Part shown: positions 27,950 through 34,849 of the stretch, piece by piece
Layout: every line of letters begins with the position of its first letter
Numbering within the stretch: position 1 is the first letter of the stretch
Assembly (NCBI GenBank): GCA_021738485.1
Contig: JAIPBX010000012.1
Location: 1 to 48,987, forward strand
From: Bacteroidales bacterium
Lineage (GTDB): Bacteria > Bacteroidota > Bacteroidia > Bacteroidales > JAIPAH01
DNA length: 48,987 nt
Direction: 5' to 3'
Made by a program: the position numbers and the translations under genes
Notes under the pieces: model-generated
Seen by the model: the letters and a program-made list of their open reading frames with translations, nothing else
What the model was told of the DNA's origin: nothing
Database searches by the model: none

Positions 27950-29992
27950 ATGAAAAGTAAGGAAAAATTAACCATAAGGTCGGTTGATAAAAAAACACTC
28001 GAAAAGTGGTATCGCATTCTGACGCTGGGCCGTCAAATGGATGATAAAGCACCTAATTATTTGAAACAAGCCCTTGGGTGGTCTTATCATGCACCCTACG
28101 CGGGACATGACGGGATACAGTTTGCTATCGGGCAGGTTTTTGATAAGGAGCATGATCATTTATTTCCCTATTACAGGGATATGCTCACCACCTTTTCCGC
28201 CGGACTGACAGTGGAAGAAATTTTATTAAATGGGCTGTCCAAAAAAGATGATGTAGCCAGTGGTGGGCGACACATGTCAAACCATTTTGCCAAACCGGAA
28301 TGGAACATCCATAATGTGTCCTCTGCAACGGGGAACCACATACAACAAGCCGTTGGTGTGGGCAGGGCCATAAAATACTATGGCGGCAAAGGCGTAGCTA
28401 TATCCTCACAGGGCGAATCTTCGGTATCCGAAGGATTTGTGTATGAAGCCATAAATGGAGCTTCCAACGAAAAACTTCCGGTTATTTTTGTTTTCCAGGA
28501 TAATGGGTACGGCATATCGGTTCCGAAAGCAGACCAAACAGCGACACCTTATGTGGCTGATAATTTTGCCGGTTTCCGTAATCTTAAAATCTTTTATTGC
28601 AATGGGAAAGATGTCTTCAGTTCCATGAATACCATGCAGAATGCCAAGAAATGGGTACAGGAAAATCAAATGCCGGCTATCGTTCATGCCAATTGTGTAC
28701 GCATTCACTCCCACTCCAATTCCGATCGCCACGAACTTTACCGCGACGATGAGGAACGTGAAAGAGCCCTCAGGCAAGACCCGGTAGCTATTTTCAAACA
28801 GCGGCTCCTCTATTCAAAGGTCTTTGAGCAGGAAGAACTGGACAACATCGATAAAGAAGCCAAGAAAGAAATCTCCAAAAACCACAAAAAGGTTATAAAG
28901 GCTGCCGATCCGGACCCGGAAACGATTTTTGATTACGTGATTCCCGAACCTTACAAAGCGGAAAAATACCCAACGGGGACCCACAATCACGACGGCGAGA
29001 AGAAAAAATATATTACAGCACTCAACGAGACGCTCAAGAGCGAGTTCCGCAATAATCCCGACACTTTTTTGTGGGGGCAGGATGTAGCTAACAAAGACAA
29101 AGGCGGTATCTTCAACGTTACCAAAGGGATGCAGCAAGAGTTCGGCAAATCGCGTATTTTCAATGCCCCGATTGCCGAAGATTATATTGTCGGCACGGCC
29201 AATGGTATGAGCCGCTACGATAATAAAATCCGTATCGTCGTGGAAGGTGCTGAGTTTGCCGACTACTTCTGGCCGGCCATGGAACAATATGTGGAGGCTA
29301 CGCACGATTACTGGCGCTCCAACGGAAAATTTGCCCCCAATGTAACCATCCGGCTCGCATCCGGCGGCTATATCGGTGGCGGATTGTACCACTCGCAAAC
29401 CACCGAAGCTGCTCTGGGGACTTTCCCCGGTATCAGGGTTGTTTATCCTTCGTTTGCGGATGATGCCGCCGGATTACTGCGCAGCAGCATTCGATCGGAA
29501 GGACCGACCTTATTCCTGGAGCCCAAAGCTCTATATAACGACCCGAAAGCAGCTACAGCTATTCCTGATGATTATGAGGTTCCTTTCGGAAAAGCAAGGG
29601 TGAGACGTGAAGGTAGCGACTTAACGATCATTACTTACGGCAATGTTACCCATCATAGCCTTGAAGCAGCGGCAAAAATAGAGGAAGAAACTAACGCCTC
29701 CATCGAGGTGATTGACCTGCGGTCTCTTATACCGCTGGATAAGGAGACGATCCTTGAATCCATTAAGAAAACCAATAAAGTGTTGGTAGCCCATGAAGGT
29801 CCTGTATTCAACGGTTTCGGGGCTGAGCTCTCATCACTTATCACCGAAGAGGCATTTGAATACCTCGACGGGCCGATTAAGCGCGTAGGAGCTACTTTCA
29901 CACCGGTAGGATTTCATAAAAACCTTGAGAATGCTATCCTGCCCAATACCAACAAGGTTTACGCCAGACTGAAGGAAATATTGGAATATTAG
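27950..29992 (+). CDS. 2-oxo acid dehydrogenase E1, fused alpha and beta subunits
   Basis: A 680-residue single chain joins an E1 alpha-like half (about 1-340) to an E1 beta-like half (about 350-680). The thiamine-diphosphate/magnesium site is visible as G155-E-S ... D184-N185-G-Y, a variant of the GDG...NN motif. In the beta half, IAEDYIVG has the cofactor-activating Glu, and H481 in LYHSQTTEA is the conserved active-site His. It decarboxylates pyruvate or a branched-chain 2-oxo acid and passes the acyl group to a lipoyl E2; the exact substrate cannot be told, and no E2 or E3 is in the window. A perfect bidirectional terminator follows. A divergent paralogue lies at 31135-33048. Confidence 0.92.
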   Translation: MKSKEKLTIRSVDKKTLEKWYRILTLGRQMDDKAPNYLKQALGWSYHAPYAGHDGIQFAIGQVFDKEHDHLFPYYRDMLTTFSAGLTVEEILLNGLSKKDDVASGGRHMSNHFAKPEWNIHNVSSATGNHIQQAVGVGRAIKYYGGKGVAISSQGESSVSEGFVYEAINGASNEKLPVIFVFQDNGYGISVPKADQTATPYVADNFAGFRNLKIFYCNGKDVFSSMNTMQNAKKWVQENQMPAIVHANCVRIHSHSNSDRHELYRDDEERERALRQDPVAIFKQRLLYSKVFEQEELDNIDKEAKKEISKNHKKVIKAADPDPETIFDYVIPEPYKAEKYPTGTHNHDGEKKKYITALNETLKSEFRNNPDTFLWGQDVANKDKGGIFNVTKGMQQEFGKSRIFNAPIAEDYIVGTANGMSRYDNKIRIVVEGAEFADYFWPAMEQYVEATHDYWRSNGKFAPNVTIRLASGGYIGGGLYHSQTTEAALGTFPGIRVVYPSFADDAAGLLRSSIRSEGPTLFLEPKALYNDPKAATAIPDDYEVPFGKARVRREGSDLTIITYGNVTHHSLEAAAKIEEETNASIEVIDLRSLIPLDKETILESIKKTNKVLVAHEGPVFNGFGAELSSLITEEAFEYLDGPIKRVGATFTPVGFHKNLENAILPNTNKVYARLKEILEY

Positions 29993-30915: not shown

Positions 30916-30993
30916 AGCTTGATAGTTTTTAGTTTGTATAAAGATAAAAGAAAAATACATAAAAACCTAGCAATCAGTTAAATTATGTATAAG

Positions 30994-31134: not shown

Positions 31135-33048
31135 ATGGTCTACATTTCTGATATTAAAGGATATAGCATCCGCTCGTTGCGGAAATGGATGGAAAGCCTT
31201 ACCTACAATACTTTGTTACAGCAGGAGATAGAGAATCACTTTAAGGAACACGAGATTGAGCCGATCTTTGATATCAATCAACACATGAATTTCGCCGACC
31301 TTGCCATGGGTGCATTTTACAAACCCGAACAGGATTTTTGTTACCTCTATCCCGGCAACCTGTTGGGAGGGCTTTCCTGCGGCTTATCGGTTATGGATAT
31401 CCTGATGACCATTCACAACAAAAAAGACCTGAATCATCATTATAACCGCATCTCTCCCACTCATTTTTATAACCTGGAAAAGCGCATAAAACCGGTCTCG
31501 GGCATTAAGAGCAATCAGACGGCAATAGCCGTAGGGCTGGCTCGCAGCCTGAAGATATATCATACCCGTGGTATTGTTATCTGCCCTGTGCATCCCGACG
31601 AAATCATTGAAGGAACGCTTTTCGAATCGATGCATGCTGCCAATGAGGAGCGGCTACCTTTGTTGTTTATCGTATCCGGTTATGCCGGAGAATCTGCAGC
31701 TTTCAATCCGGATATTTTTCAACGCCTGACCAATATTTATTTCAGCTATTGCGACGGTAGCAGCTTTTTTGACACTATGAACGCTATGAATAAATCCTGG
31801 CAGATTACCCGCGACGGTACAGGACCTGTTATGATGATTGGCCGAAACAGGCTTACTTCACGGCAAGCCTATGATACTTTAGCCGGAGAGTTATATCATT
31901 CACAAAAGCTTACCAAGGAAGAAATTAACAAAATGTGGGAGGACGCCCGTATACAAATCCGCCAGGAAAAAGAAAAAGTGATAGCTTTAGAATCCCCGGA
32001 TGCAGGAGACATAACGATGACGCAAACGAAGGTATTTAAAGCCCGGGAACAAGAAGCTAACGAAGAGACGCCACGATATACTATTCGTCAGGCCATTGAA
32101 AGCACGATAATCAAAGAATTACAACAAAACATCCATGGATTTTACGTAGCCAGAAAATATACCGCTGAAGCAAACCCGTTTCCCAGCAGGCTCAGGTCTT
32201 ATATTGCCGAGCACAGGGTTATCACGCTTAATGCCGGTGAGCAACTGCTGACCGCTTCCGCGGGAGGCATGTGCGAATACAATGAAAATATGAGTGTCGT
32301 GGTGGAACCGTGTGCCCATGCCGATGACTACTGGAGCTCGCTGGCCCAGGTTGTTGATTTAACCTTCTCGATGCTTATGCTGCAGCAGAATATTTCATTA
32401 GTTATTCGCATTCCCTCGGGAGGATATACCGGCAGCGGACCCTATGCTTCCCAAAATCTGGAGGGTCCGTTGCTTTCAGTGCCGGGGTTAAGAATTGCCT
32501 ATCCGGCTTATGCTAATGATTATGCCGGTTTACTCCGTTCAGCTATGCGTTCGCCCGGAATAACCATATTGCTTGAAAGCAAGGCTATATATGATGACGA
32601 TATCGCCACTGCCCGCGTGCATTCTGAAAACAGTGTTCCTTTCGGGGAAGGAAAGATTGTCAGGGAAGGAAAGGACCTGACCATTTTTAGCTACGGCAAT
32701 GCACTGCACCTGGCCGTATTGGCCGCGGAAAGGCTTGCCCGCGAAGAGGAGTATGAAGTGGAGGTTTTTGATCTGCGATCGCTACTCCCTATGGATAAAA
32801 CAGGTATCTTAAAAAGTGCCAGGAAAACCGGAAAAGCACTCATCGTCACTGAAAGTTACCTCTTTGGTAATGTAGGGGCAGAAATCAGCTCTCTATTAAA
32901 CCAGGAAGCTTTTTTTTCGCTGGAAGCGCCGGTCAAAAGACTGGGAAGCCTCTTTATACCTGTCCCCTATCAAACCAACCTCGAAAGCACCGTCTTACCC
33001 GGTGTTACCGATATAAAAGAAGCAGCCAGGGATATACTTTATATGTAA
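31135..33048 (+). CDS. Divergent fused E1 alpha/beta paralogue, probable pseudoenzyme
   Basis: The open frame begins at 30985, but the ATG at 31135 aligns with the start of the intact paralogue at 27950 and gives 637 residues; the earlier 50 residues look like translated leader. The alpha half is divergent: where the active protein has G-E-S and D-N-G-Y, this one has H-P-D (about 153-155) and S181-G-Y-A-G-E-S187 in an ungapped alignment, so the thiamine-diphosphate/magnesium ligands are gone. In the beta half the active-site His of the HSQ motif is A438, although the AGE segment with a Glu and the DLRSLLPMDK region are retained. The frame is long and uninterrupted, so it is selected for something. 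A regulatory or structural partner of E1, or a changed reaction, are the options. Confidence 0.85.
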   Translation: MVYISDIKGYSIRSLRKWMESLTYNTLLQQEIENHFKEHEIEPIFDINQHMNFADLAMGAFYKPEQDFCYLYPGNLLGGLSCGLSVMDILMTIHNKKDLNHHYNRISPTHFYNLEKRIKPVSGIKSNQTAIAVGLARSLKIYHTRGIVICPVHPDEIIEGTLFESMHAANEERLPLLFIVSGYAGESAAFNPDIFQRLTNIYFSYCDGSSFFDTMNAMNKSWQITRDGTGPVMMIGRNRLTSRQAYDTLAGELYHSQKLTKEEINKMWEDARIQIRQEKEKVIALESPDAGDITMTQTKVFKAREQEANEETPRYTIRQAIESTIIKELQQNIHGFYVARKYTAEANPFPSRLRSYIAEHRVITLNAGEQLLTASAGGMCEYNENMSVVVEPCAHADDYWSSLAQVVDLTFSMLMLQQNISLVIRIPSGGYTGSGPYASQNLEGPLLSVPGLRIAYPAYANDYAGLLRSAMRSPGITILLESKAIYDDDIATARVHSENSVPFGEGKIVREGKDLTIFSYGNALHLAVLAAERLAREEEYEVEVFDLRSLLPMDKTGILKSARKTGKALIVTESYLFGNVGAEISSLLNQEAFFSLEAPVKRLGSLFIPVPYQTNLESTVLPGVTDIKEAARDILYM

Positions 33049-34180: not shown

Positions 34181-34849
34181 ATGAATCTTAGAAAAATTTT
34201 GTTAGCCGGCACATTAATGGCATTCTCCATGACCATGTTTTCCCAGACTCATCAAATGCAGAAAGATGACAATGGCATGAAATACCTGATAGACGGAGAT
34301 ATTAATCTCTCCGGTTTCGGGGGTGTTACAGTTGATTTTACTTCTGTAGAGAACGATCCTGCTGTTTTTGTCGGTGGCGGCGGGGCTTTACTAATCAACC
34401 AGAGTGTTTTTCTCGGAGGTTATGGCCAAGGCCTCGCCACCCAGCACAAGAGGCACGATGTCTCTATCGATGAAGCAGAAAACATTGATCCTGTCTTGCA
34501 GTTCGGTCACGGTGGGGTGTGGCTGGGATATATCCTTCAACCTTCCAGCGTAATACATCTGAATATTAACACGAAGTTCGGGGCCGGGGAATTAGCCCTT
34601 ACCGAGTCACTGGATGAATACGATATGTTTGACAGCTATCATAAGGACCAGGTTTTGGTTCTCACCCCCTCCGTCGGAATAAACGTAAACATTCTCCCCT
34701 GGTTCCGCATTGCCGCTAATGCAGGATACAGGTTGACCAGCGGTGTGGGCGATAAAACCTATAATAACAGTGAGGAATTGATCTTTAAGAGTAAGGATTA
34801 TAATGCTCCTTCCTTCTCATTATCATTCCTCTTTGGAGGGTTCAATTAA
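34181..34849 (+). CDS. Exported outer-membrane beta-barrel-like protein
   Basis: A 222-residue protein with a signal peptide (about 1-21, ending MFSQ) and a mature part of alternating strands with glycine-rich turns (GGGGALL, FGHGGVWLGY) and a C-terminal SFLFGGFN that resembles a barrel closing strand. No family is recognised. It lies 45 bp upstream of the TonB-dependent receptor in the same direction, so it may be an accessory protein of that system. Confidence 0.75.
   Translation: MNLRKILLAGTLMAFSMTMFSQTHQMQKDDNGMKYLIDGDINLSGFGGVTVDFTSVENDPAVFVGGGGALLINQSVFLGGYGQGLATQHKRHDVSIDEAENIDPVLQFGHGGVWLGYILQPSSVIHLNINTKFGAGELALTESLDEYDMFDSYHKDQVLVLTPSVGINVNILPWFRIAANAGYRLTSGVGDKTYNNSEELIFKSKDYNAPSFSLSFLFGGFN

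Follow-up and report, generated by a model that had tools for sequence, protein, structure and literature searches.

A fused E1-like protein lacking the catalytic residues of 2-oxoacid dehydrogenases is under purifying selection in a genus of Bacteroidales

Introduction

Paralogues with a dead active site are, to our knowledge, known for the E2 component of 2-oxoacid dehydrogenase complexes (E3-binding protein) and for transketolase (TKTL1). The E3-binding protein, or protein X, is a non-catalytic E2 paralogue that serves as a structural subunit of eukaryotic pyruvate dehydrogenase complexes. TKTL1 is an animal paralogue within the thiamine-diphosphate (ThDP) family in which the cofactor segment is deleted and the fold is kept; its activity is debated, and heterodimers with the active paralogue have been proposed. 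A search of the open-licence literature with few terms found no described E1 pseudoenzyme. The active sites of E1-type enzymes are located between the alpha and beta halves. There are two such sites per alpha2beta2 or fused dimer, and E2 places one subunit-binding domain on the E1 twofold axis (PMC2663715, in the part available).

Here we describe an E1-like protein, referred to as pseudo-E1, encoded in a stretch of 48,987 nucleotides (the window) of a Bacteroidales bacterium (assembly GCA_021738485.1, contig JAIPBX010000012.1). It shares the domain order (E1 alpha, Transket_pyr, Transketolase_C) and the predicted fold with the fused branched-chain-type E1 of Bacteroidota, but the metal-ThDP motif, the catalytic histidines of the two halves, Phe436 and the loop over the active site are all absent from it. 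Like TKTL1, as the latter is generally understood, pseudo-E1 is a dead-site paralogue with a retained fold; unlike pseudo-E1, TKTL1 is a transketolase and has no lipoyl/E2 partner. The role proposed below would resemble that of the E3-binding protein, in part as generally understood, in that an inactive copy of one component is retained in the complex for structural purposes, although the E3-binding protein is a paralogue of E2 and is integrated in the core. Duplicated E1 subunits with a changed role, as we propose for pseudo-E1, are described for Carassius, where the copies have kept catalysis and lost E2 binding (beta D319N), whereas pseudo-E1 has kept the acidic anchor and lost the catalytic residues (PMC5554223, in the part available).

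Results

Gene organization of the locus

A preliminary description of the locus, made from the DNA letters and translated reading frames, reported an open frame of more than 600 codons, and indeed the frame at 31135–33048 runs for 637 codons without a break. The features discussed in this study are the following (window coordinates).

27950–29992, + strand: intact fused E1, neighbouring paralogue upstream of pseudo-E1, 680 aa
30067–30960, − strand: FGE-sulfatase domain gene between both paralogues, deleted in the sister genome
31073–31105, + strand: promoter-like site TTTG-21-TACTTTAG, 29 nt before ATG 31135, identical in the sister genome
31135–33048, + strand: pseudo-E1, alpha+beta-fused 2-oxoacid dehydrogenase E1-like protein without the ThDP/metal site, 637 aa
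31591–31599, + strand: HPD (residues 153–155) replacing the GE/DS metal-ThDP motif (G155, E/D156, S157 in E1s) in both orthologues
31678–31686, + strand: GYA (residues 182–184) at the place of QDNGYGISVP, with the metal-binding N185 (70/70 E1s) in a gap
31873–31878, + strand: site of the missing active-site loop of approximately 21 residues (E1 260–280), just after the lost alpha His, from the alignment of E1 with that of T. thermophilus
32239–32241, + strand: retained beta Glu E369 (E410 of E1, Glu in 70/70), from column counts
32317–32319, + strand: His395 replacing the invariant Phe436 of E1, from the alignment of 70 E1s
32446–32448, + strand: Ala438 replacing the catalytic beta His (H481, 70/70 E1s), aligned with H128 beta of the G. 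stearothermophilus E1p
32923–32925, + strand: Glu597 of both pseudo-E1s, the acidic residue at the position that anchors E2, aligned with Asp640 of E1 and Glu285 of 1w85_B

The start codon of the preliminary description (ATG 31135) is preferred over an alternative start at 30985 (687 aa), as the resulting extension is absent from the frame of the sister genome and the conserved promoter-like stretch would fall inside it. The reading of this stretch as promoter-like relies on what we take to be the Bacteroidota promoter consensus. E1 and pseudo-E1 are separated by a hairpin that by eye resembles a terminator and, in the window, by the opposing FGE gene; the two are therefore probably not co-transcribed. 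No E2 gene lies near pseudo-E1. The sister genome (G001), which belongs to the same genus by kinship, has the same order of E1, pseudo-E1 and efflux genes. It retains approximately 139 bp comprising a terminator-like hairpin and the last bases of the FGE gene, which indicates that the sister has lost this gene. Further downstream in the window, a 222-aa open reading frame without a Pfam match (34181–34849) lies between the efflux and TonB-receptor genes, which are directly adjacent in the sister.

Domain organization and predicted structure

Comparison with Pfam and NCBIfam models identified all three domains (E1_dh, Transket_pyr and Transketolase_C) in the neighbouring E1. The window pseudo-E1 matched Transketolase_C (E 1.4e-31) and Transket_pyr (1.7e-6) with no match to E1_dh, and its sister orthologue reached 17.4 bits for E1_dh, under the cut-off of 22 bits; Transket_pyr and Transketolase_C are above their cut-offs in both copies. 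By its domain order and E1-like fold pseudo-E1 belongs to the fused-E1 family, even though E1_dh is sub-threshold.

Structures were modelled with AlphaFold2 as monomers, from alignments (60 sequences for pseudo-E1) that are rich in E1s and thereby favour an E1-like fold. The pseudo-E1 model has a pLDDT of 86.7 and a pTM of 0.87, compared to 89.3 and 0.90 for the E1 control. The beta half superposes on 1w85_B with Z 40.1 (1.6 Å over 317 residues; E1 control Z 38.2, 1.5 Å, 321 residues), and the alpha half on 1umb_C with Z 29.8 (2.9 Å over 299 residues; E1 control Z 38.2, 2.8 Å, 332 residues). The models thus predict a beta half no less E1-like than that of the intact E1, and an alpha half that has drifted.

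Loss of residues required for catalysis

Pseudo-E1 and the neighbouring E1 are 30–32% identical (637 versus 680 residues; 30–34% in the comparison with the fused branched-chain-type E1 of Bacteroidota), and with an E value of 3.8e-88 this likeness is not due to chance; the C-terminus of pseudo-E1 lies at the same place as in the 680-aa E1. Their alignment, which had been described as ungapped, does contain gaps, including approximately 9 residues at DNGYGIS and approximately 21 after the alpha His. As a reference, we aligned 70 fused E1s (those of the window and the sister, 40 more from Bacteroidales and 28 from other Bacteroidota) with the two pseudo-E1s. Residues N185, H255, F436, H481, H452, E410 and R251 are each a single letter in 70/70 E1s, S157 is found in 69, and the second position of the GE/DS motif is Glu in 64 and Asp in 6.

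Against this background, the reported changes of GES to HPD and of the active-site beta His to Ala438 are real and recur in the sister-species orthologue. What was reported as a replacement of DNGY by GYAG holds as a loss of the metal-binding Asn but not as a substitution; a gap that covers D184-N185 is the better description. The preliminary description did not list three further changes: in both pseudo-E1s the alpha His H255 is R243, H452 is Phe and F436 is His395. Also missing from the beta half is GQD (376–378), a segment invariant among E1s, and R251 is kept in both pseudo-E1s. Of the features that define the enzyme, pseudo-E1 lacks the metal-ThDP motif and the catalytic His of both the alpha and the beta half, and has the ThDP-activating beta Glu.

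Based on the alignment and partly on general knowledge, we take E410, H255 and F436 to correspond to E59 beta, H271 alpha and F85 beta of the G. stearothermophilus E1p. For that enzyme, the respective roles given to the three residues are activation, acyl transfer and stacking (PMC2663715, in the part available). Substitution of H128 beta in this enzyme leaves 0.9% of decarboxylation and 0.7% of complex activity in H128N, and 100% and 3.8% in H128Q, and the crystals of both variants were without cofactor (PMC2663715, same part). The loss of catalytic residues in pseudo-E1 is well supported by the sequence comparisons, and we infer that the protein would be unable to bind ThDP-Mg, to decarboxylate or to acylate lipoyl groups.

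Purifying selection on pseudo-E1

Selection was estimated from one orthologous pair within one genus. The sister orthologue (L035:2543–4453) is 88% identical in amino acids and 84.5% in nucleotides, and equal in length, with no indels and no stops. The dN/dS of this pair is 0.080 (NG86), 0.099 (LWL85), 0.094 (YN00) or 0.106 (ML), compared to 0.030–0.038 for E1, 0.044–0.085 for the efflux gene, 0.077–0.091 for SucB and 0.039–0.048 for E2b from the same two genomes. Changes are distributed over the codon positions as 54/30/212, and simulated neutral evolution introduced 9.7 stops on average, with zero stops in 0.05% of runs. The constraint on pseudo-E1 is thus that of an ordinary gene and similar to that on SucB, although its protein changes faster than E1 (88% versus 98% identity between the species).

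Within pseudo-E1, dN/dS (NG86) is 0.064 for the beta half and 0.096 for the alpha half, the opposite of E1 (alpha 0.011, beta 0.056). Pseudo-E1 has kept 77 of the 190 residues that are invariant among E1s. The orthologue has the same residue at every one of these 77, whereas among variable sites the two proteins agree at 397 of 459 (p 6e-5). The kept invariants comprise 22/83 in the alpha half, 34/80 in beta-Pyr and 21/27 in beta-C (beta-C versus alpha, p 3e-6). The full conservation of the kept residues, the merely ordinary conservation of the replaced ones and this split are all expected of a protein that has lost its active site but retained its scaffold.

The preliminary description had proposed an E1 paralogue without an active site under selection, and had named the lack of orthologues together with a dN/dS near 1 as evidence to the contrary. 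An orthologue exists, dN/dS is 0.08–0.11, the 637 codons contain no stop or indel and the kept invariants are unchanged, all of which bears the proposal out. Purifying selection on pseudo-E1 is well supported, and its combination with lost catalytic residues is that of a pseudoenzyme, for which absence of activity is predicted.

Distribution and origin

It had been hoped that the substitutions would prove conserved in an orthologous group spread across Bacteroidota. The motif losses are all common to both known orthologues, but the distribution is narrow: among the matches listed, orthologues occur in 2/2 genomes of the family and in 0/391 other genomes of the order. The order, phylum, class and 59-genome sets searched overlap. 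With pseudo-E1 as query, 51 of 59 genomes matched at E 1e-3 (the source genome, G000, included), and the only orthologue besides that of G000 was in G001; at 1e-60, 113 of 393 order genomes matched, with two matches only in G000 and G001. In the phylum set 31/395 genomes matched, only G000 with two, and in the class set the single match at 1e-97 (1/345) was G000 itself. When E1 served as query, 153 of the 393 genomes of the order matched at 1e-45, and a second full-length, stop-free fused frame was present only in G000 and G001 among the matches listed, which for four genomes comprise the stronger ones. The families of the near E1s G040 (1 genome) and G202 (2 genomes) contain no pseudo-E1. Fused matches fetched from outside the genus are ordinary E1s, at 66–74% to the window E1 within the order and 52–58% elsewhere. 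A scan of 84,980 species genomes for short exact peptides, which reaches close relatives only, returned only L035 of the sister.

An origin by recent duplication of E1 within the locus is not supported, because pseudo-E1 is no closer to the E1 of its own genus than to other Bacteroidales E1s. In similarity to pseudo-E1 the own-genus E1 ranks 39/42 in beta-Pyr, 36/42 in beta-C and 19/42 in the alpha half, and of the 17 genus-derived E1 residues 3 recur in pseudo-E1, which carries the common residue at 4 of the remaining sites and a different one at 10. In a tree of 50 rows the pseudo-E1 pair is on a saturated branch (approximately 10 changes per column), and its place within the fused E1s is not fixed. 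Recent horizontal gain was likewise set aside, as there is no compositional sign of it: the GC (46.2%) and GC3 (49%) of pseudo-E1 match those of the neighbouring E1. In genome G201, E1 and the four genes before it (including hexapeptide (THDPS-type), glycosyltransferase and Sua5-type genes) follow the order of the window, and no pseudo-E1 or efflux gene was found in the stretch fetched downstream of E1. As read from this one genome, the E1 locus is ancestral, and pseudo-E1, FGE and efflux genes lie in a genus-specific stretch.

The E2 anchor and possible partners

We take the acidic position occupied by Glu597, which is E285 in 1w85_B and D640 in the window E1, to be the counterpart of human D319. 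This beta residue forms a salt bridge, and its loss raises the E1-E2 dissociation constant more than 100-fold (PMC5554223, in the part available). Both genomes encode an E2 (467 and 461 aa) that combines lipoyl, E3_binding and acyltransferase domains. The source genome also encodes a third E2 of 448 aa with an E3_binding domain (L097:841–2187, G000:C134), alone on its contig; the stretches examined contain no E1 gene. Another fused E1 that looks intact (L103:3621–6047, G000:C155; 808 aa, GDSS...DDDYGIS) brings the E1 types of this genome to at least two besides pseudo-E1 and 2-oxoglutarate dehydrogenase.

The E1 of the genus deviates at 14–15 of 311 conserved columns, compared to a mean of 3.8 in 40 other Bacteroidales E1s, 1 of which is as high. 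This excess may fit, weakly, a mutual adjustment with pseudo-E1. The deviations include the change of HEDK to HEGP (D617G, K618P) in the C-terminal beta domain. Between the intact E1 and L035:250–2292, dS is 0.30–0.38, unusually low against roughly 0.4–1.8 for the other genes compared, which could be explained by codon bias or gene conversion.

Discussion

On balance, we lean towards pseudo-E1 being a non-catalytic E1 paralogue and a subunit with a structural or regulatory role in the branched-chain-type complex. A role as regulator or scaffold of E1-E2 is plausible, as the beta half, the C-terminal domain and the acidic anchor position are kept and E2 is present in both genomes. The presence of Glu597 and of E2 leads us to propose that pseudo-E1 could occupy E2 or pair with E1. 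As a non-catalytic subunit it would set the number of active E1 units on the complex; alternatively, it would pair with E1 and damp or tune it. A pseudo-E1 homodimer would have no metal site, and in a heterodimer with E1 each interface site would lack either the metal site (with the pseudo-alpha half) or the beta His and Phe (with the pseudo-beta half). More tentatively, and with somewhat less confidence than in a subunit role as such, we suggest a dedicated dead E1, specific to this lineage, that occupies the places of E1 on the E2 core of a bacterial branched-chain 2-oxoacid dehydrogenase or pairs with E1, and so sets activity. Against a role in the complex speak the probable lack of co-transcription with E1 and the lack of a nearby E2 gene, and retention of the beta-C domain may reflect a constraint of the fold instead of E2 docking.

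A changed catalytic function or a role in sensing a ligand is unlikely, though it deserves serious consideration: the former ThDP cleft could have been rebuilt (HPD, H395, D397-D398) to hold a different metal or ligand or to carry out a different reaction, with pseudo-E1 working apart from E1-E2. The new HPD and AHADD segments are identical in both orthologues, as are 40 of the 42 beta-Pyr sites at which an E1-invariant residue has been replaced, and it is the alpha half that departs most from E1 folds. A new catalytic site would, however, predict higher conservation of the replaced sites, and overall the conservation of these does not exceed that of ordinary sites (88/101 versus 397/459, p 1.0), with those of the alpha half less conserved (43/53). 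The stronger constraint on the beta half (0.064 versus 0.096) likewise counts against it.

That the pseudo-beta half and the E1 alpha half complete an active site in a hybrid enzyme, capable of decarboxylation with little acyl transfer to lipoamide, seems improbable to us. The activating Glu (E410) is kept as E369, the H128Q beta variant retains decarboxylation and not complex activity (PMC2663715, in the part available), and duplicated E1 subunits gave rise to a new pyruvate decarboxylase in Carassius (PMC5554223, likewise in part). However, the H128N beta variant is dead in both assays (PMC2663715, same part), and the beta half of pseudo-E1 has also lost F436, H452 and the GQD segment.

A decaying duplicate, with its frame open by chance, would account for the lost catalytic residues, for the faster change of the protein and for the presence in two genomes only among the matches listed, but is very hard to reconcile with the low dN/dS, the frame free of stops and indels in two species, the third-position bias of the changes and the conserved upstream stretch. 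Although the source genome is a draft of 156 contigs and 78% complete, an assembly chimera or contamination can be practically dismissed, as the assembly of a second species has the same order of E1, pseudo-E1 and efflux genes at 84.5% nucleotide identity over pseudo-E1, and the GC and GC3 values match those of the neighbouring E1.

Pseudo-E1 adds an E1 case to the known dead paralogues of complex subunits. If it is indeed a non-catalytic subunit of the complex, E1 stoichiometry or activity could be set by a non-enzyme subunit in a bacterium, and the protein would provide a natural test of functions of the E1 fold other than catalysis. It would then be the E1 counterpart of the relation of the E3-binding protein to E2.
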